From contig NZ_CP024081.1 of NCBI RefSeq assembly GCF_003033885.1, forward strand, positions 3,162,046 through 3,226,045: a stretch of 64,000 nt of DNA, read 5' to 3'. Below the pieces are notes generated by a model. The model had not been told where the DNA came from. It ran no database searches and saw only the letters and a list, made by a program, of their open reading frames with translations. A program made the position numbers and the translations under genes. Below, one piece after another: positions 4,803 through 55,664 of this stretch. The stretch is from Pseudomonas rhizophila (GTDB lineage Bacteria > Pseudomonadota > Gammaproteobacteria > Pseudomonadales > Pseudomonadaceae). The stretch's first letter is position 1. The number at the start of each line of letters is the position of its first letter.

Positions 4803-5255
4803 ATGAGTACTGCATTTTCCCTGGCCCCTCTGTTCCGTTCCTCGGTGGGCTTCGACCGTTTCAACGACCTGTTCGAAACCGCCTTGCGCAACGAACCGGG
4901 CAGTAGCTATCCACCCTACAACGTGGAAAAACATGGCGATGACGAGTATCGCATCGTGGTTGCCGCCGCCGGGTTCCAGGAAGACGACCTGGACCTGCAA
5001 GTGGAAAAAGGTGTGCTGACCATCAGCGGTGGTAAGCGCGAAGCGAGCAACGACAGCGTGACCTACCTGCACCAGGGTATCGCCCAGCGTGCGTTCAAGC
5101 TGTCCTTCCGGTTGGCCGATCATATCGAGATCAAATCCGCCGGCCTGAGCAACGGTCTGTTGAGCATCGACCTGTTGCGAGTGATCCCGGAAGAGGCGAA
5201 AGCCAAGCGCATCCCGATCAACGGGGCGCAGCAACAACCCGCGCTGCAAAACTGA
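4803..5255 (+). CDS. ibpA: Small heat-shock protein IbpA (Hsp20 family)
   Basis: 150-residue ATP-independent holdase that binds unfolding proteins and aggregates in the cytoplasm. The alpha-crystallin domain spans about residues 38-125 (YNVEKHGDDEYRIVVAAAGF near its start). The N-terminus SLAPLFRSSVGFDRFNDLFE is typical of IbpA. The C-terminal IxI-like anchor is represented by KRIPI. Transcription appears to depend on sigma32 and translation on an RNA thermometer (separate entries), giving two layers of heat control. Single-gene unit closed by a terminator. Confidence 0.95.
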   Translation: MSTAFSLAPLFRSSVGFDRFNDLFETALRNEPGSSYPPYNVEKHGDDEYRIVVAAAGFQEDDLDLQVEKGVLTISGGKREASNDSVTYLHQGIAQRAFKLSFRLADHIEIKSAGLSNGLLSIDLLRVIPEEAKAKRIPINGAQQQPALQN

Positions 5256-5274
5256 TGCATCGCAACTAATGAAG

Positions 5275-5298
5275 AAGGGCGCCATTGGCGCCCTTTTT
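5275..5298 (+). terminator. Terminator after ibpA
   Basis: AAGGGCGCC-ATT-GGCGCCCTT followed by TTT; a near-perfect hairpin 20 bases after the ibpA stop. It may also serve the convergent GGDEF-EAL gene. Confidence 0.85.
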
Positions 5299-5330
5299 CA
5301 TTTGTGGAGCCCTCATTGCGGGCTCCTTTG

Positions 5331-8300
5331 TCAGGGCAACAGTCGCTCAAACGCGTCTAGCGGCAACGGCCGACTGTGCAGGTAGCCCTGGTACAAATGG
5401 CAACCCAGCCCCTGCAGGAAACTCAGTTGTTCCGGGGTTTCGACACCTTCGGCGATCACCTCCAGCTCAAGGCTGCGGGCCATGGCGACGATGGCGCGGA
5501 TGATTTCGGTATCGTTGGGGTCGCTGGTGGCGTCGCGCACGAATGACTGATCGATTTTCAAGGTGTCCACCGGCAGACGTTTAAGGTAGGTCAGCGACGA
5601 ATAACCGGTCCCGAAATCGTCCATGGCGAAGCTCACTCCCAATTTTTTCAGGCGACGCATCTTGGCGATGGTGTCGTCCAGATTCTGGATCACGATGCCC
5701 TCAGTGATTTCCAGCTTGAGCATGGCGTAAGGCAGGCCATAGGTGGCGAGGCAGCTTTCGATGCGCTCGACGAAGTCGCTCTGGCGGAACTGCCGTGGGC
5801 TGATATTCACGCACAGGCTGAATTGCAGCGGATCGATCTTGCCCTTGGCGATCAGTTGTTTGAAGCCGTTGCAGGCTTCATCGAGAATCCAGGTGCCAAC
5901 TTCCAGAATCAGCCCGCTGTCCTCCAGCACTTTGATGAATTCATTCGGCGATTGGGCGCCCAATTCGGGGTGATGCCAGCGCACCAGCGTTTCGGCGCCG
6001 ATGATGCGGTTGTCCCGGGCGTCGACCTGAGGTTGGAAATGTACGCTGAACTCCCCGCGAGCCAAGGCCTGGCGCAGGTCGGTTTCCATGCGCAGCCGTT
6101 CGCTGGCGGCTTTTTGCATGGTGGTGTGGAACATCTGCGAGGTGTTGCGCCCCGAATCCTTGGCGCGGTACAGCGCAATGTCGGCGCGCTTGAGCAGGTC
6201 GGTGGGGGTGGAGCCATGGTCGGGAATCAGCGCCATGCCGATGCTCGGCGTGACCTGCAACCGTTGGCCATCGAGAAACATCGGCTCCGACAGTAATTCG
6301 CGCAGAGTGTCGGCCAGGTTCTGTACCTGTTGGCTGACTGCGCTGCGGGTGCCTTCCAAGCCGCTGAGCAGCACCACGAATTCGTCGCCGCCCAGCCTCG
6401 CCACGGTGTCTTCCAGGCGCACGCTGGCTTCCAGGCGTGCGGTGATGATTTTCAGCACCGTGTCGCCCACCGGGTGGCCCAGGGAGTCGTTGATGTGCTT
6501 GAAGTGGTCCAGGTCCAGAAACAGCAGAGCGCCCCGCAGGTTATGGCGCTTGAGCAAGGCGATCTGCTGGCTCAGCCGATCCATCAGTAAGGCGCGGTTG
6601 GGCAGGTTGGTCAGCGGATCGTGATAGGCCAGGTGGCGGATCTGTGCTTCGGCATTGCGCAACAGGCTCACGTCCCGGGCGGTCAGCAGCAGGCAGGCCG
6701 TCTCATTGAGCATGATCGGTTCGACCGAGACCTCCACCGTGAGGATCTCTCCGCGTTTATTGCGCCCGAGCATTTCCTGGTGATGCACCCGGCCCTTGAG
6801 CTCCAGTTCGGCCAGCAATGCCATGCGTTGTTTTTCTTCGGCCCAGATACCGACCTCGTAGACCGTATGCCCGATCACTTCGTCGGCGCGGTAGCCGGTC
6901 AGGCGGCAGAAGCCGTCATTGACTTCGAGGTAGCGGCCGCTGTCGCGTTCGGTGATGGTGATGGCGTCAGGGCTGGAATGGAAAGCCTTGGCGAATTTCT
7001 CCTCGCTGGCCTTGAGGGCCGCTTCAGAGCGCTGCTGCTGGGAGATATCCCGCAGGGTGGTGACAATGCAGGGCTGGTTGCCGACGTTGATCTGGCGACT
7101 GGAAATCACGCATGTCAGCGGCTGGCCGTTTTTATGGTGGACGACGACGGCCACGTTGTTCAGGGAGCGCTCGCGTATCACCCTTTCGATGCGTTGCAGG
7201 CTGCTCCCCGAGGCGTCCCACAGGCCGATTTCGTCGGCGCTCAGGCCGATCACGTCGGTGGCTGACCAGCCGAAGGTCTGGGTGAAGCTGGAATTGATTT
7301 CGAGGAACCGGCCACTATCCTGATGAGTTACGCAGATCGGGTCGGGGCTGACCTGGAACAGGGTGGCGAATTTTTCTTCCGACGCCGCCAGGCTCTGTTC
7401 GCGTTCTACCTGGTCAGTGATGTCCAGCAAGGTACCGGCCATGCGCAGCGGGCTGCCGTCGTCATTGCGATAGAGACGTGCGCGGCTTTCCAGGTATCGG
7501 GCGCTGCCGTCCGGCATTTGTACGCGGTAGGTCAGTTGATAATTCCCCGCCGGGCCTTCCCGCAGGCTGCGGTAGGCGTTGCGCATGTTGTTGCGCTCGT
7601 CATCGGGCACCCCTTCGAAAAACGCATCGAACGACTCGTGGAACGGCTTGGGCTCCAGGCCATGCAACTGCGCCGCCCGGGCCGAGCCGTAGAGCATGCC
7701 GCTGGGAATATGCCAGTCCCAGGTGCCCAGTTGCGCCGAATCGAGGGCCAGATCAAGGCGTTCCTGGCTGTCCTTGAGGGCCTGTTCGGCGAGTTTGCGT
7801 TCGGTGGTATCGAGGAAGGTGCTCAGCAGATAAGGTTGGCCTTCCAGCTCGACCTTCTGGGCGCTGAGCAGGCCGCTGTGGATCTGACCATTGCTGGCCT
7901 GCAGTTCCACCTCCATGCTCGCCATTTCGCCGTTGGCCTTGATGATCTCCACCAGTTTTGCCCGCTGTCCGGGGTCGACCCATAGGCCCAGTTCCAGCGT
8001 CGTGCGGCCGATGATGTCGTGCAGCGGCCAGCCAAACAGACTTTCGAAATACTGGTTGGCCTCGATGATCAGCCCGTCTTCCTGGCGGGTCAGCAACACC
8101 ATATTCGGACATAGGTGAAAGAGCGTGGCGAAGCGTTTTTCCGAGTTGCGCAGTGCCTGCTCCCGTTCGCGCTGGTGCGTGATCTCCCGGATTACTCCGA
8201 TCATCCGCGGGCGGCCGTGTTTGTCGGGTAATACGCTGCCGTTGATTTCCAGCCAGTGCAGGCTGCCGTCGGGCCAGACGATGCGATGGTGCATGGCCTG

Positions 8301-48427: not shown

Positions 48428-49222
48428 TCACTGCACATCCCCATATTGGGTCAATATCAAAGCCTTCACCGCCGCGCCGTACGCCACCCTAGGTACGCCC
48501 GACAGGCGTTTATGCAACACTTGGGTCAGTGATTCCCCTGGCATCAGGCTCGCGTCGCCAAAGTCTTCATCCAGGTGCAGTGGATGAACGATTACCTCAA
48601 GCGAGCCGTGACCTGGCGGCGCGGCGTGGTGCAGGTCGGCGGGTGTGCAGACGTAGTCGGCTGTCGCGCCGCACAGGCTGCGCAGGCGACGGTTGAGCAT
48701 GGTCTTGAACAGGCGCTTGGGCAGGTTGAGATTCGCCCCCAGGTTACGCGCCAACCGAATCGGCACGCCGTGTCGGGCGGCAAAGCGGGCCACCAGCTCT
48801 CCAATGGGCCAGATGTTATGTACGTGTTGATGAGAATCGAGGTGGCTAGGCCGCAGGTCGTGGTCCAGGCAGCGTTGCCATTGGGCATCAAGCTCTTCCT
48901 GTACCGCGCGGAGGTCCTTTGAACCAAGGCGCAGGCAGTAGCGCGAGAGGTTCAGGTCGAACTCGCCGTTCGTGTCGCAAAACGCCGGTCGCGAAGCAAT
49001 GGTCTGGCTCAGCGGGCGGCCGAAGCTGAGATTGAAATGCAGGCCGATTCGGCCGTCGAGTAGCGGTTTGCGGGCCATTTCACAAGCTTGCTCGAAAGCC
49101 GGCATGTTGGCCATGGCCGTGGCCGAACTGATCACGCCAGCCTCGAAGGCCCGCAGAATCAGGGAGTTTTCGTTGAGATCGAGTCCGAAGTCGTCAGCGT
49201 TGACGATCACTTGGCGTGGCAT
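48428..49222 (-). CDS. ChbG/HpnK (YdjC) family deacetylase
   Basis: 264 residues. Family start VIVNADDFGL with metal-binding aspartates, and the zinc histidines in SHLDSHQHVH near residues 125-134. Members remove acetyl groups from oligosaccharides such as chitobiose or from glycolipids. It overlaps the preceding acyltransferase gene by 29 bases and is the last gene of the exopolysaccharide locus on this strand, which suggests it trims N-acetyl sugars of that polymer. Cytoplasmic, no signal peptide. Confidence 0.85.
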   Translation of the reverse strand: MPRQVIVNADDFGLDLNENSLILRAFEAGVISSATAMANMPAFEQACEMARKPLLDGRIGLHFNLSFGRPLSQTIASRPAFCDTNGEFDLNLSRYCLRLGSKDLRAVQEELDAQWQRCLDHDLRPSHLDSHQHVHNIWPIGELVARFAARHGVPIRLARNLGANLNLPKRLFKTMLNRRLRSLCGATADYVCTPADLHHAAPPGHGSLEVIVHPLHLDEDFGDASLMPGESLTQVLHKRLSGVPRVAYGAAVKALILTQYGDVQ

Positions 49223-50378
49223 TCACATTCTCCTGGCGCTTGGGGGTAGATGACGAAGTCGCTGTCGCGCTTTGCCCGGTCGGGCGCTTGCGCAGTAACG
49301 GTTTCAGGCTTTTCCATAACCGCAAGGCGAGCCCCAGTACCAGGCCATCGGGCTGCCATGAATAAAAACTCCAACGCCAGTGCTCCAGTTGTCCGGTCAT
49401 GCGTTCATGCAGTTGATGGCTCGAGTTCTCCAGGCTGACCCGCGAGGCATCGATCCAGCGCCAGTTGTCATCCAGCCCCCAGCGAATCCACTCCTCGAGC
49501 AGAACCCGACCACTGCCCAGGTCGGCATGCTGTGGCAGGAACGCCAGGTTGTAGTCGTACAGTCGTCCCTGATCCAGCAGGCCGAGGCGATAACTGATGC
49601 AGCGACCGTCCAGTTCCAGTATCACCACCCGCACCATGCCCTCGGCGGCGAGCGCAGTGAAGGCGTGATTCATCCATTGCCGACGGCTGGGGTCGGCGAA
49701 AATGCCGACACCTTCTTCTCCTTTCCAACTGGCTGCCTCGACTTCGGCAAGGTCGTGCAGCAGCAGCCCCATGCTGATGGCATCGGGTGTCACCCGGCGG
49801 ATTTGGGCACCGCATGCGGCGATCCGCTTGCGCGCCCGGCGTAACTTGTAGCGCGGATCACCGGATATCTCCTGGCGGTCGCTGTCGCTGATCAAATGCA
49901 CCGGCACCCGGCAACTGAGTCGCCGTTCCCCGGTCGAGCTCAGGGCCATCCAGGCACTGAGGACGCTTCCTTCACCCACCGGTTCGGTCACTTCATTCAA
50001 CTGTAGTAACGCATGGGGCAGATGTTGGCGGATCTGCATCAGCGCCTCTGCCATACCCTCGGCTTCCAGACGTATCAGCGGCGCGATGCGGTCAGCCAAT
50101 GGATAGCCCAAGTGACGCAATACCCGGAAACGCAGCCCACAGATACGTTCGCGCCCCGAAATGAGCGGCAGACACAGGCACAGTGTCTGATCCTGCCAGC
50201 CAAGCAGTATGTTGAGCTGCTGATCTGGCAGCAGCGCAAATTCCGCCGCTTGCAGCCAGGCCAATGTGTTGAACGGTGTAGTGTCGGGCACCAGGGTTCG
50301 CAGCTGTTCATAAGCTGTTGCAGGGAACTGCGCCGCGCCCAAGGAACGGCACCATTGGAACCTGATCGCCATGGACAT
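49194..50378 (-). CDS. GNAT_6/CelD-BcsL-type acetyltransferase
   Basis: 394 residues. The central half matches the GNAT_6 domain of cellulose-synthesis CelD/BcsL proteins (PRYKLRRARKRI, then CISYRLGLLDQGRLYDYNLA), related to FemAB peptidyltransferases. Likely acylates sugars or lipid-linked intermediates of the exopolysaccharide; substrate unproven. ATG at 50378 overlaps the stop of the gene before it by one base (TGATG). A broken copy of its first codons lies at about 51244-51282. Confidence 0.78.
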   Translation of the reverse strand: MSMAIRFQWCRSLGAAQFPATAYEQLRTLVPDTTPFNTLAWLQAAEFALLPDQQLNILLGWQDQTLCLCLPLISGRERICGLRFRVLRHLGYPLADRIAPLIRLEAEGMAEALMQIRQHLPHALLQLNEVTEPVGEGSVLSAWMALSSTGERRLSCRVPVHLISDSDRQEISGDPRYKLRRARKRIAACGAQIRRVTPDAISMGLLLHDLAEVEAASWKGEEGVGIFADPSRRQWMNHAFTALAAEGMVRVVILELDGRCISYRLGLLDQGRLYDYNLAFLPQHADLGSGRVLLEEWIRWGLDDNWRWIDASRVSLENSSHQLHERMTGQLEHWRWSFYSWQPDGLVLGLALRLWKSLKPLLRKRPTGQSATATSSSTPKRQENVNATPSDRQR

Positions 50379-51067
50379 CAGGCCGCCGCAGTGGTGGCGG
50401 ACGGCTGGGCCGGTTTGCGAAACGGGTCCAGTAGTGAGCCGCTATAGAACGTGTCGCGGAAAAAACGCCAGCGGCCAAACAGGCAATACACGTGGGTGAT
50501 TTGTCCGCGCTCCTGATAGTCCATGCGCAGGTGCAGTTTTACGGCTGGAATGTTCTCCAGATCGCAGACGTCGACTACTTTGTCGCTGCCTTTGTCGGCC
50601 ATGGTCTTCCAGAGATCCAATTGCACATCCACCGATAGCTGACTGCCCCAATAGGCGCGGATCATTTCACCGCCGAACTCGAAGAACTCGCCCGGCTTGA
50701 CCGGGAACCAGCAACCATAGAAATGGCGGTCGAAATAGTCGCGTTGACTGCCCCAGATGAAAGCGACGGTGTTGCCCTTGTCGTCCAGATACATCAAGCC
50801 GGTGTGGCCTTCGGCTGCCAGCTCACGCATGGTCTCGACACGGTCGCCGAAGTGAGTGGCGAAAGCGTCGGCGTTGCTGGTAGTGATGACTTCCCTGCGC
50901 AAAAGTGGATAAGGCTTAAGTTTGCAAGGCCGCACAGGACTGACCAGATCCCGCTCCATCCATATCAGTTGGGAGTGAAAAAACACGTAGCGTCTGCACA
51001 GCTTTTTGAGCACGGTGCGCAGGCCTTTCTTCTGAATGCGATCACGCAATTTTTGCAGAACGTTCAT
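50378..51067 (-). CDS. GNAT-like protein of the exopolysaccharide locus, paralogue B
   Basis: 229 residues. Basic N-terminus (LQKLRDRIQKKGLRTVLKKL), then an acyltransferase-like fold: YFDRHFYGCWFPVKPGEF and a C-terminal GNAT-type block with N-I-P-A-V-K-L-H-L-R-M and HVYCLFGRWRFFRDTF. About 72% identical by eye to the adjacent paralogue at 51282-51971, including the length. Probably a decorating acyltransferase. TGATG junction with the next gene. Exact function not recognised. Confidence 0.7.
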   Translation of the reverse strand: MNVLQKLRDRIQKKGLRTVLKKLCRRYVFFHSQLIWMERDLVSPVRPCKLKPYPLLRREVITTSNADAFATHFGDRVETMRELAAEGHTGLMYLDDKGNTVAFIWGSQRDYFDRHFYGCWFPVKPGEFFEFGGEMIRAYWGSQLSVDVQLDLWKTMADKGSDKVVDVCDLENIPAVKLHLRMDYQERGQITHVYCLFGRWRFFRDTFYSGSLLDPFRKPAQPSATTAAA

Positions 51068-51102
51068 AGTGCCTCCTGACGGGTGGCGGGTTGGGAAATG
51101 GC

Positions 51103-51130
51103 CCCCATCGCGAGCTGGCTCGCGATGGGG
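51103..51130. repeat. REP palindrome upstream of paralogue B
   Basis: CCCCATCGCGAGCTGGCTCG followed by CGATGGGG; complete palindrome but without the flanking GTGGGA arm. Confidence 0.7.
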
Positions 51131-51149
51131 TTTTGGCTGACGAGCGCAC

Positions 51150-51282
51150 TCATGCTGATGTCCCCATCAGCCTCCGGCGCATCGGCAGCCAGTCGCTGGG
51201 CAGGATGATCTGTGTCTGCCACGGCGCCACACCGCTGGGACGGCAAGGAGCGACACCATTTGAGCCGGATCGCCATGGACAT
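51150..51282 (-). pseudogene. Fused remnant: GNAT_6 start joined to flippase end (duplication scar)
   Basis: Read on the minus strand from 51282, it begins MSMAIRLKWCRSL, a copy of the GNAT_6 start (MSMAIRFQWCRSL). At about 51241-51248 it switches to a copy of the end of the flippase gene, which in its own frame reads WQTQIILPSDWLPMRRRLMG, and ends at the flippase-type stop at 51150-51152. This is the junction expected from a tandem duplication of the segment flippase-end / paralogue / GNAT-start. It encodes nothing functional by itself. Confidence 0.85.
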
Positions 51283-51971
51283 CAGGCCGCCGCAGTCGAT
51301 GCAACCGGCTGATCCGGTTTTTGAAAAGCGCCCAGTGCCGAGCCGCGGTAAAACGTGTCGCGGAAAAACCGCCAGTGACCGAACAGGCGATACACGTGGG
51401 TGATCTTGCCGCGCTCCTGGAAGCCCATGCGCAGGTGCATCTTGATCGCCGGGATGTTTTGCAAGTCGCAGACATCGACCATCGTGTCGCAACCTTTGTC
51501 AGCCATGATCTTCCAAATTTCCAACTGCATGTCCGCCGACATCCTGGAACCCCAGTAGGCACGGATCATCTCGCCACCGAACTGAAAGTACTCGCCAGGC
51601 TGGATCGGGAAGTTGCAGCGATAGAAATGGCGGTCGAAATAGTCTCGCGTACTGCCCCAGGCGAAACCCACGGTGTCGCCTTGAGCATCCAGGTACATCA
51701 AGCCTGTGTAGCCCTCCGCCGCCAGCTCGCGCATGGTTTTGACGCGGTCGCCGAAGTGCCGGGCAAACGCGTCGGCATTGCTGACCGTGATGAACTCCAG
51801 GCGCATTGGTGGGTAGGGTTTGAGGTTATGCGGGGGAAGCGGGGTCCGCACATCGTGCTCCAGCCACACCAGTCGGGAGTGGAAATACGCGTAGCGCCTG
51901 AACAGCTGTTTGAGCACAGCGCGCAGGCCTTTCTTCTGGATGCGATCACGCAATTTTTGCAGGGACTTCAT
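51282..51971 (-). CDS. GNAT-like protein of the exopolysaccharide locus, paralogue A
   Basis: 229 residues, same domain layout as paralogue B (YFDRHFYRCNFPIQPGEYF and a C-terminal block around HLRMGFQERGKITHVYRLFG). ATG at 51971 follows AGGAGGCACC, the same upstream sequence as in paralogue B; longer in-frame starts run through REP DNA and are rejected. Its stop overlaps the first codon of the GNAT_6 remnant exactly as paralogue B overlaps the intact GNAT_6 gene. Confidence 0.7.
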   Translation of the reverse strand: MKSLQKLRDRIQKKGLRAVLKQLFRRYAYFHSRLVWLEHDVRTPLPPHNLKPYPPMRLEFITVSNADAFARHFGDRVKTMRELAAEGYTGLMYLDAQGDTVGFAWGSTRDYFDRHFYRCNFPIQPGEYFQFGGEMIRAYWGSRMSADMQLEIWKIMADKGCDTMVDVCDLQNIPAIKMHLRMGFQERGKITHVYRLFGHWRFFRDTFYRGSALGAFQKPDQPVASTAAA

Positions 51972-52090
51972 GGTGCCTCCTGACGGGTGGCGTGGTGGGA
52001 GAAACGAGGTGTGTTCCAGTCCATGGCAAAACAGGGTGTCCCCGGGCAGGAGATACCCGATCTGAGGGGTTTGCATAAGCTCCGGGCCGA

Positions 52091-52189
52091 CCCCATCGCG
52101 AGCAGGCTCGCTCCCACATTGGAGGTGTAGCGGCCGCAGCTCTTGTGTTCGGCGGCGAGCCACTGTGGGAGCGAGCCTGCTCGCGATGA
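52091..52189. repeat. REP inverted pair before paralogue A
   Basis: Elements at about 52091-52118 and 52164-52189, in the spacer between the flippase gene and paralogue A. This spacer interrupts the otherwise overlapping gene chain. Confidence 0.85.
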
Positions 52190-52210
52190 CGATCTGCCTG
52201 ACGACGGCGT

Positions 52211-53515
52211 TCATGCGGATTTCCCCATCAGCATCTGCCGCATTGGCAGCAGGTCACTGGGCAGGATGATCAGCGTCTGCCATAGCGCCACGCCACTGAG
52301 GCGGCAGTACATCGTCAGTAGCGCGACGGTCACGGCCATATAGGCGATCGAAGACGCCGCGGCGGCCCCGACGATGCCGTAACGCGGAATCAGGATCAGG
52401 TTCAATGCCAGGTTCAATAACGCTCCCACACCCATCAGCAGTGAAACCGTGCCGGGCCGGTTCTTGCCCAGCAGATCCAGGCGCAGGATGCTCGCGTAGC
52501 ACAATCCGAACAGCCCCGGCAGCAGCGCCAGCAAGGCGGGATAGGCTGGTTGGTAGGCCGCGCCGAACAGCGTGACGATCAGCCATTCACCAATCAGTGC
52601 CATGCCCAGGCAGGCGCCGAGCATGACCGTGGCGGTCAGGCGCAGGGCCAGAGGCGTCAGGCGTTTCATGTCGGAGTCCTGCTGCAACAAACGCTTCATC
52701 AGCGGCGTGGTGACCGCCTCAGGCACAATCAGCAGCAGTTCGGCGGCGGCGCTGGCCATGGCGTAATGGCCCAGGGCAGTGCTGCCCAGCAGGGCGCCGA
52801 TGAACAGGTAGTCCGAGCGCAGTACCACTTGCTGGAACAGTAAATCGGGGTGGCTGCGGGCACCGTAGCGCAACAGCTCCTTCTGGTTGGAGCGATCCCA
52901 TTGCAGGGTGAACCTGTGGTCCCGCCGCAGCCAGACCCAACCGGCCAATACCACCAGGCTCAGACCCGCCAGCCAACTGATCAGTGCGGCCTCCAGGGCG
53001 GTGTCTTTCCACATCCAGAACAGCGCCAGAAACAGCAACAGCGGCGCCAGGGATTCCATCAGCCGCAGGGCATTGAAGGCGCCAACGCCGCCGGACGCAT
53101 TGTGCAGTGTCAGCAGGCCGCTCTTGAGCACGGTCAACGGCACGGCCAACAGCAGCAGCCACGCCAACAGTCCCAACTGTGTGGTGATGTCCAGTTCGCC
53201 GCCGAATTCGCGCACCAGTGCCACCACCAGCACCGTCAATAACCCGGCCAACAGGCAGCCGAAGACCAGCACCTGGCTGAGCAGCAGGCCCATCGAGCGT
53301 TGTTGAGCCGCTTGATAGCCCACGGCCGAATTCAAGCCGCCACTGGTGACGGCGCTGATCAGGTCCGGCAGGGTGCTTAGCAGGGCGAACAGCCCGCGTT
53401 CACTGGGCCCCAGGATCCGCGCCAGCAGCACATTGCGCAGCAGGCGCAGGCCGATCATCGCCAGGCGCGTGCCCATGCTCAGCGCCAAGTGCTTGAGGTA
53501 GTGGCCGCGGCTCAT
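52211..53515 (-). CDS. Wzx-like polysaccharide flippase
   Basis: 434 residues, twelve to fourteen hydrophobic segments, MATE/MOP superfamily (polysaccharide biosynthesis protein). N-terminus LRLLRNVLLARILGPSERGL is typical. It would flip the lipid-linked repeat unit to the periplasm. Its ATG overlaps the deacetylase stop (ATGA). Its last codons are duplicated in the scar at 51150-51243. Confidence 0.88.
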   Translation of the reverse strand: MSRGHYLKHLALSMGTRLAMIGLRLLRNVLLARILGPSERGLFALLSTLPDLISAVTSGGLNSAVGYQAAQQRSMGLLLSQVLVFGCLLAGLLTVLVVALVREFGGELDITTQLGLLAWLLLLAVPLTVLKSGLLTLHNASGGVGAFNALRLMESLAPLLLFLALFWMWKDTALEAALISWLAGLSLVVLAGWVWLRRDHRFTLQWDRSNQKELLRYGARSHPDLLFQQVVLRSDYLFIGALLGSTALGHYAMASAAAELLLIVPEAVTTPLMKRLLQQDSDMKRLTPLALRLTATVMLGACLGMALIGEWLIVTLFGAAYQPAYPALLALLPGLFGLCYASILRLDLLGKNRPGTVSLLMGVGALLNLALNLILIPRYGIVGAAAASSIAYMAVTVALLTMYCRLSGVALWQTLIILPSDLLPMRQMLMGKSA

Positions 53516-54516
53516 GGGCGTGTCCCCCGGCGAATGCGCCAGGCCAGCAATTCAGGGTGCTGGGCATTGCGTTGGCTGACGCCGAAGCGTGGCAGGTTCA
53601 ATGGATCGCCGTCGGTGCGATACAAGCCGGTTTCGGTGCCCAGGGCAAATGGGAAACCGTGGGCTGCCACCTGTTGACGCACGCGCTCATCGTGATCGCC
53701 GTTGGGGTAGCAATACACCGGCAGCGGCTGGGCGCAACCGTTCTCCAGGGCAGCCCGACTGCGGCTCAGCTCTTCGTGCAGACGCTGATCATCCAGCGCG
53801 GTGAGAATTGCGTGGCTGGCACCATGGGGGCCGAAGCGGATGAGCCCGGAATCTTCCAGCATTCGTACCTGGAACCAGTCCAGGGCCTGGGGCTGGGCGC
53901 CCGTGGGACAGGCGTCGGTGAGGTCGTTCAAGACCTGCGGGTCAAGGCTCTTGAGGCTCTGCAGATAGTGCATCAGCGACAGGCTGCGGCGCTGCTCATC
54001 CAAGTCATCGAGCATCACCGGCAATGGCCGGCCGGCGTGCTGCAAATGCTCGATCAACGAGTGTCGCGCCACTTGGCCATGGCTGCCCCACAGGGTTTCG
54101 CCGATGCTTTCCCACCAGAAGTGCTGGCGGCTGCCGATGAAGTCGGTGGACAGGAAAATACTCGCCGGCACCTGGTATTGGCGCAGCAAAGGAAAGGCAT
54201 TCATCGCGTTGTCGCGCCAGCCGTCGTCGAAGGTCAGCGCCACTCGCGGGCGATTCGGGACGCTTTCAGGATCGGCCAGCAGCAGGCTCATCAAGGGCAC
54301 GCATTCGAAATAGCGTTGCAGCCAGATCAGCAAGCGCTCGAAAGCCTCAGGTCCCACGCACAATTCGTTGCGATGGGGCAGTTCGGCGGCGCGGTCATTG
54401 TTAAGGACCCGGTGCAGCATCAGAATCACGCCGGCGCCACGCAACGGACCACGGCCCAGGGACGTGTTCAGGTACAGCCAGCCGCCGGTGCGCTTGCAGA
54501 CTTGTTTGATGGACAT
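53512..54516 (-). CDS. Polysaccharide deacetylase (NodB/CE4 family)
   Basis: 334 residues. NodB motif 1 VALTFDDGWRDN contains the catalytic and metal-binding aspartates; the metal histidines are in FGPHGASHAIL. CE4 enzymes remove acetyl groups from amino sugars, often adjusting polymer charge. No signal peptide is evident, so it may act on cytoplasmic lipid-linked intermediates. ATG 54516 has AAGGAGACGG upstream; an upstream in-frame start at 54552 is disfavoured. Confidence 0.86.
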   Translation of the reverse strand: MSIKQVCKRTGGWLYLNTSLGRGPLRGAGVILMLHRVLNNDRAAELPHRNELCVGPEAFERLLIWLQRYFECVPLMSLLLADPESVPNRPRVALTFDDGWRDNAMNAFPLLRQYQVPASIFLSTDFIGSRQHFWWESIGETLWGSHGQVARHSLIEHLQHAGRPLPVMLDDLDEQRRSLSLMHYLQSLKSLDPQVLNDLTDACPTGAQPQALDWFQVRMLEDSGLIRFGPHGASHAILTALDDQRLHEELSRSRAALENGCAQPLPVYCYPNGDHDERVRQQVAAHGFPFALGTETGLYRTDGDPLNLPRFGVSQRNAQHPELLAWRIRRGTRP

Positions 54517-54527
54517 GGGCCGTCTCC

Positions 54528-55664
54528 TTAGCGGTTCTGCTCGGGGTTCCATTGGCTATAACGATGACCTCGCAGAAACTGCCACAGCCCGATGCTCATG
54601 CCCGCCAGCGTCACCAGCACGAACGCCGCCAGGCGAAAGGGCCTGGGCAATCGGTGGCCTACGTCCAGTAAGCCGATCATTGCAATGGCGTAGCCGAGCA
54701 GTTGCGCCACCAGGCTCAGGCGATAGAACAGATGTTCATTCCACAGCCAGGCGTTGCTCAGCAGCAGCGGCAATAGCAACACCGGCGCCAGACGGCGGAT
54801 CAGTTTGTGACTGATCAGGCCGATGGCGTAGAGCCCGTGACGAAGAGGGTTGAGCAACTGCCGGCGCTGGGCCAGGCTTTGCAGGCCGCCAACGGTGACC
54901 CGCTGGCGACGGCGAAACTGTTTGTCGGCTTCGTCCACGCCTTGATCGGTGACCCGGGCCAGTGGCGCATACACGATGGACTTGCCCGCCGCCGGCGCAC
55001 AGGTGCTGAGGAAGAAGTCGTCGTTGACCTGCGCCGGTATGGGTTCAAACAGTTCGCGCCGCAGGGCCAGCAAGGCGCCGTCGGCCGAGACCATGCAACC
55101 TGTGCGGCTCTCTACCTGACGCAGCCAGCCTTCGTAGTGCCGATACAGGCTATCGCCCAGGCTCAGGCCCTTGCCCGGCACGGGGATTTCCATATGCCCG
55201 GCACAGGCGCCGACTTGCGGATCGCCCAGCGGGGCCAACAGGTGGCCAAGGGTATCGGCGGCCCATTGGTTGTCGGCGTCGGTGAACACCAGGATCTCTC
55301 CAGTGCTGTGGGCCACGCCGGTATTCAGGGCGGCGGCCTTGCCCTGGCGCGGCAGGTCGAGCACGGTGATGCGCGGGTCGATGACCCGCCGAGCGCAGGC
55401 CACTGTGTCGTCGGTGGAGCCGTCGCTGGCCAGGATGATTTGCAGCGAGCGCGCCGGGTAGTCCTGGGCCAGCAAGGTGCGCAGTTTCTCTTCGATGTGC
55501 CGTGCCTCGTTGTGGGCGGCAATGACAATGCTGACGTCCATCGGCAACGCCGGCCCGTAGCGCCGGAGTGGAAAAAGTGGCGCCAGCAGACTCAGCATCA
55601 ACGGATAACCGAGGTAGGCGTACACCGGCAGCAACAGGCACGACCAGTAAAGAAATTCAGCCAC
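54528..55664 (-). CDS. Membrane glycosyltransferase, family 2 (processive type)
   Basis: 378 residues with GTG start after CAGGAGACC. N-terminal membrane segment, GT-A fold with VSIVIAAHNEARHIEEKL, LASDGSTDD and DADN, acceptor motif region and QFRRRQRVTVGG (a QxxRW-like signature of processive synthases), then three to four C-terminal membrane segments. Adds sugars during repeat-unit assembly at the inner face of the membrane. Overlaps the preceding gene by 8 bases. Confidence 0.87.
   Translation of the reverse strand: MAEFLYWSCLLLPVYAYLGYPLMLSLLAPLFPLRRYGPALPMDVSIVIAAHNEARHIEEKLRTLLAQDYPARSLQIILASDGSTDDTVACARRVIDPRITVLDLPRQGKAAALNTGVAHSTGEILVFTDADNQWAADTLGHLLAPLGDPQVGACAGHMEIPVPGKGLSLGDSLYRHYEGWLRQVESRTGCMVSADGALLALRRELFEPIPAQVNDDFFLSTCAPAAGKSIVYAPLARVTDQGVDEADKQFRRRQRVTVGGLQSLAQRRQLLNPLRHGLYAIGLISHKLIRRLAPVLLLPLLLSNAWLWNEHLFYRLSLVAQLLGYAIAMIGLLDVGHRLPRPFRLAAFVLVTLAGMSIGLWQFLRGHRYSQWNPEQNR

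Follow-up and report, generated by a model that had tools for sequence, protein, structure and literature searches.

The window (the whole 64,000-nt stretch of Pseudomonas rhizophila DNA that was analysed) carries a set of genes for a biofilm polysaccharide that, judged by gene order and gene size, represents a variant form of pap (Pseudomonas acidic polysaccharide). Its two papN genes, with a broken piece of DNA between them, are probably the product of an ancient and now eroded tandem duplication that was combined with the alternative loss of two papM genes. Tandem duplication and gene loss are ordinary kinds of genome remodelling, here unusually clear; the retention of one papM at either of two sites is a less expected pattern. 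One operon duplication can be seen in living relatives at different stages of erosion: with its junction intact, with the junction shortened, with a stub, and with one copy apparently popped out. In the open-licence literature searched, including the accessible parts of PMC7716237 and PMC10850567, we found no account of papN duplication or papM displacement.

A variant pap cluster

The pap cluster, papA-papP, was described in Pseudomonas ogarae (fluorescens) F113 (Blanco-Romero et al. 2020, PMC7716237), and we assigned gene names by order and size from that description. The minus-strand order in the window is papK - papL - papN(A) - broken piece - papN(B) - papO - papP (Table 1). The genes papK, papL, papN, papO and papP are neighbours in the same order in F113, the sizes (PapL 434 and PapN 229 aa) and domains match, and papF-papJ-like genes continue upstream in the window, by order and family, as they do in F113. 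The two clusters differ in that F113 is tabled with a single PapN and has PapM between PapL and PapN, whereas the window has two papN genes with a fossil junction and lacks papM at the usual papL-papN position. Because papM is missing there, we call the window cluster a variant of pap and not an unbroken pap cluster; because papM is present elsewhere in the genome (below), we do not treat an in-cluster papM as defining pap.

Table 1. Features of the papL-papP region (window positions)
Feature	Position	Strand	Basis
papL, flippase (Polysacc_synt_3)	52211..53515	-	Pfam
papL end plus 16 nt beyond it, source of the copied piece	52195-52306	-	alignment
REP-like inverted-repeat pair in the papL-papN(A) gap	52094..52188	.	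repeat search; 29-nt arms, 97% complementary
papM 3'-end remnant, ~35 codons, upstream of papN(A)	51971..52075	-	tblastn with relatives' papM, E 6e-8; tail alignment
papN copy A, 229 aa, faster-evolving	51282..51971	-
Fossil papO (GNAT_6) start	51244..51282	-	34/39 identical
Fossil papL 3' end, fused to papO start	51134..51245	-	90/112 identical
REP-like palindrome in spacer upstream of copy B	51103..51131	.	repeat search
27-nt tail of the second papM copy, immediately before papN(B)	51069..51095	-	identical to intact papM end in L006
72-codon ORF spanning the fossil, accidental	51064..51282	-
papN copy B, 229 aa, modelled GNAT fold, slower copy	50378..51067	-
papO, GNAT_6 (Acetyltransf_6), intact	49194..50378	-	Pfam
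papP, YdjC-like	48428..49222	-	Pfam

The inverted-repeat pair in the papL-papN(A) gap is one that we take, from its general likeness, to be of the REP type.

The fusion junction

An earlier note on this DNA had proposed that the broken piece starts as the beginning of papO and turns, at about 51241-51248, into the end of the flippase gene, and the pairwise alignment it suggested bears this out as follows: the papL end (52195-52306) aligns with 51134-51245 with 90 of 112 positions identical (score 114, where the best of 100 shuffles reached 21), and the papO start region (50340-50392) aligns with 51244-51296 with 48 of 53 identical (score 81, best of 100 shuffles 22). Within the second match, 51244-51282 is the papO start proper (34 of 39 identical) and the remainder belongs to the paralogue's end. 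These matches meet, with a 2-bp overlap at 51244-51245, inside the proposed interval, and the fossil papO start has a TGATG overlap with the copy A stop, in the way that the intact papO gene overlaps copy B. At the junction the unit's downstream edge is fused to its upstream edge, and both parents are present in order. The note was also right that the two paralogues are about 72% identical (the PapN A and B proteins are 72% identical, and the regions 50340-51096 and 51244-52000 are identical in 603 of 767 alignment columns), that both remain open (both 229-aa frames are intact) and that the upstream region was copied (51063-51096 and 51967-52000 have 31 of 34 bases in common). A search of three whole genomes with the 167 bases 51134-51300 found the unbroken piece in the window's own genome and in P. 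tehranensis (91%); in the Pseudomonas sp. Q11 genome no unbroken piece was found, and parts of the query match only at the two parent places.

A 72-codon ORF spans the fossil, and we considered whether it is a gene. Between the window and P. tehranensis it has 20 differences in 220 nt, which fall 10/5/5 on codon positions 1/2/3; they are not concentrated at third positions, and the ORF is not kept in five of the eight other tandem loci, so we rejected it as a coding gene. It could instead be that the ORF is not debris and is kept for translational coupling from A to B, since it overlaps both the A stop and the B start. The TGATG and ATGA overlaps on its two sides are present in the window and in P. 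tehranensis, the fossil spacer is equally long in both, and the spacer lengths indicate that the frame is kept in three of the eight other tandem loci (L037, L039 and L042); but the 10/5/5 spread of differences over codon positions, the absence of an intact frame or start codon from the other five loci, whose spacers are 77 to 96 nt long, and the fact that the ATGA overlap is inherited from papM make coupling very improbable, and we consider the ORF accidental.

Tandem and single-copy loci in relatives

We mapped 47 pap loci in 46 genomes (the window, L001-L006 and L037-L076; L075 repeats L006). Ten have the A-B tandem, 21 show one papN within the stretch read (in some, another papN lies elsewhere in the genome) and 15 have a second papN beyond papP. 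P. tehranensis retains the full junction, the same as in the window. The eight further tandem genomes comprise one with a shortened papO-start/papL-end junction (L038, from genome G210, read by eye) and seven with a short papO-start stub. A papO-start stub follows the copy A stop in all ten tandem loci read: each agrees with the intact papO start at 9 to 14 of 15 bases, 113 of 150 overall. In the two weakest, L003 and L040, 9 of 15 bases agree, and ~1% of the positions in those loci score as high. Since junction or stub is found in other genomes, the duplication most likely predates the window's species and is common to the group.

Single-copy relatives, which the earlier note had suggested looking for, do exist, but loss explains them better than an ancestral single-copy condition does. 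In Q11 (L002) the sequence upstream of its single papN is A-type and the body of the gene is B-type, so this copy looks like the pop-out product of recombination between the two copies, and the mosaic disfavours Q11 as the ancestral form; the species with a single A-type papN sit within the A clade (below). From these two observations we infer that the single-copy strains have lost a copy.

The second papN that lies downstream of papP in 15 of the loci L055-L076 is an independent duplication (the p2 clade, 14 rows, support 100/100); in L055 (G108) this p2 copy is broken into two frames.

papN phylogeny and recombination within the cluster

The papN tree was built from 70 protein rows; L075, which repeats the L006 genome, and the second papN of L055, which carries a frameshift, were excluded, and loci L083 and L084 were used neither here nor for the papL tree. 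One clade (100/99) unites the ten A rows with 12 of the 13 single papN genes of the group, and the B rows and Q11 sit just outside it. Left unconstrained, the protein tree shows the B rows as paraphyletic (96/80), which leaves room for two events, gene conversion or transfer; a topology in which the 11 B rows are monophyletic is not rejected (p-AU 0.50). The tandem A rows also are not one clade in the free tree, and constraining them to a single clade is not rejected (p-AU 0.20). On the papL tree tandem loci are intermixed with single loci, which points to repeated loss or exchange. Between the window and P. tehranensis (L001) dS is 0.17 for papK, 0.20 for papL, 0.14 for papN A, 0.40 for papN B, 0.33 for papO and 0.38 for papP (48428-54552), and such jumps among neighbouring genes suggest recombination inside the cluster. 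The Pap tree is also not congruent with the genome tree according to section 3.4 of PMC7716237.

That incongruence, the uneven dS values, the mixing of loci on the papL tree and the slight paraphyly of B to A would all suit a different origin, in which two alleles were fused when a foreign papL - papN(A) - papO fragment was inserted beside a resident papL - papN(B) - papO; A and B would then have diverged before they met, and the junction would mark an insertion and not an in-place duplication. We think such a fusion improbable: a junction or papO stub is common to all ten tandem loci read, monophyly of the B rows is compatible with the data by the test above, and a single in-place event needs fewer steps. 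We thus prefer tandem duplication in place.

Loss of the in-cluster papM

A papM ORF of 597-839 codons (its frame in some cases extended upstream) separates papL from papN in 41 of the 46 genomes read, and none was found at that place in the window, L001, L002, L050 and L058. The window nevertheless has traces of papM before both papN copies, the ~35-codon remnant before A and the 27-nt tail before B, and the eight tandem genomes other than the window and P. tehranensis still have papM before copy A. These observations together suggest that the duplicated unit probably included papM. The earlier note's tandem duplication is upheld by the fusion junction and by the other genomes with a junction or stub, but its unit (flippase end, paralogue and GNAT_6 start) needs enlarging: most likely it was papL-end / papM / papN / papO-start, ~2.9 kb long, with the second papM deleted later. 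Alternatively, papM may have been lost before the duplication and re-imported later by other species. Decay of the in-cluster gene can be seen in genome G087 (L083, ~4857-5522), where N- and C-terminal pieces of papM are left and an unlinked papM is intact.

The unlinked papM

The window's genome has one papM, which is intact and lies 2.3 Mb from the cluster (G000:C1:930248-932155, or L077:8249-10156), next to an acyltransferase-3 gene (L077:6638-7816). It is 60-68% identical to in-cluster papM genes. Among 398 genomes of the genus a papN match was found in 118, a papM match in 120 and both in 116; in the two papN-positive genomes without papM the papN matches are near threshold. Four genomes (G221, G225, G364 and G316, the last a 78% complete assembly) have a papM match without a papN match at E 1e-3.

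The unlinked type of papM is carried by six of the 398 genomes (G000, the window's own; G035, P. tehranensis; G331, G087, G201 and G245) and by Q11; these genes are 78-100% identical to that of the window, and all others are 68% identical or less, considering the best three candidates per genome (a further scoring used the best four). For 48 pap loci, including those of G087 and G201, an unlinked papM was found in 7/7 genomes without an intact in-cluster papM and in 0/41 with one, where 39 of the 41 come from the best-three scoring and two more were added; full scoring of 22 of the 39 gave the same result. The sole trace among the 41 is a 30-residue scrap of the unlinked type in G125. Fisher's test for 7/7 versus 0/39 gives 1.9e-8, or 9e-7 when the seven are counted as five lineages (the grouping is ours, and there are at most five). 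Scars left by deletion of the unlinked papM beside the acyltransferase-3 gene were found in five genomes with an in-cluster papM (5/6 loci that have both sides; L087-L092).

Genomes with pap thus have an in-cluster or an unlinked papM and almost never two or none, as judged from the best three candidates per genome; the only genome listed with two full papM matches among these is G377 (contigs C82 and C49; 57% and 53%). This near-constant single papM suggests that PapM is required by the pathway and that a version only 60-68% identical can stand in for it. The best reading of these sequence comparisons would be that a single papM persists, at one site or the other, through alternative papM loss in different lineages. 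The reciprocal or alternative loss of duplicated genes is a general concept, and papM resembles it in that two similar genes at two loci have lost one member per lineage, with scars at both; it is unlike classic duplicate loss in that the pair is only 60-68% identical and the second gene adjoins an acyltransferase-3 gene. If, on the other hand, the unlinked papM were the old in-cluster gene transposed, that is, moved rather than replaced, a single full papM match in almost every pap genome (best three candidates per genome) would follow naturally. However, in a papM tree of 48 rows the seven unlinked genes group together (SH-aLRT 100) and separately from the 41 in-cluster genes, and in G087 a decayed in-cluster papM coexists with an intact unlinked one, so we regard transposition as extremely unlikely.

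Proposed history

Combining tandem duplication in place with alternative papM loss, the history might be as follows: An ancestor common to the window lineage and the P. mediterranea / P. uvaldensis group would have carried the event, in which illegitimate recombination between an early-papO site and a site near the papL end would have given a tandem of papL-end / papM / papN / papO-start. The second papM would then have been deleted to its tail, leaving papN(B) with its ribosome-binding region. Copy A would have diverged faster than B, with purifying selection on both, and some lineages would have shed one copy through homologous recombination between the copies, for which Q11 is the expected mosaic. 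Separately, an ancestor would also have had a further papM next to an acyltransferase-3 gene; in the window lineage the in-cluster papM would have been deleted and the unlinked one retained, and other lineages would have done the reverse, so that one working papM was left.

The PapN and PapM proteins

Compared over eight outgroups, copy A has 30-35 unique residues and copy B has 8-13 (p 0.0001 to 0.01), which indicates that A has evolved faster than B. Values of dN/dS are 0.17 (A) and 0.06 (B) for the window versus P. tehranensis, and 0.19 between copies A and B, the comparison of paralogues that had been suggested earlier; these values point to purifying selection on both copies, and positive selection on either has no support in them (Nei-Gojobori, whole genes). 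All 33 family-invariant residues are kept in both copies. The idea that the extra copy gained a new substrate finds no support in these residues or in dN/dS values so far below 1.

The modelled structure of PapN has a GNAT fold (nearest solved structures MshD 1ozp, VipF 6wqc and AAC(6')-Iy 1s3z, at no more than 15% identity). By sequence PapN had only sub-threshold GNAT matches and fell below every Pfam and NCBIfam cut-off, so it was given no family assignment there. The acyl-CoA pyrophosphate loop of GNAT enzymes is usually glycine-rich; the corresponding region of PapN (residues ~137-147) reads YWGxxLS, without that form. PapN A and B are presumably acyltransferases that act on the polysaccharide or its precursors. 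It is conceivable, though rather unlikely, that the pap polymer exists in exchangeable chemotypes, such that the satellite acyltransferase-3 gene with its own PapM would alter both decoration and trimming of the polymer and the papN duplication with its fast copy A would be a second such change. If so, Pseudomonas would re-tailor one matrix polymer by exchanging single genes into and out of the cluster, almost never having two PapMs.

The papM pattern opens the role of this gene to testing. PapM has the (beta/alpha)8 barrel of the GH-A clan. It had no Pfam match, and the sequence search for a solved relative gave none that is credible (one match, E 0.61). Compared with its closest known counterpart, the GH79 beta-glucuronidase of Acidobacterium capsulatum (8b0d, 7psk), PapM is 13% identical and has an extra 230-residue N-terminal part. 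Its conserved acidic residues include E350 (nearly invariant) and E429 (invariant), which are candidate catalytic glutamates.
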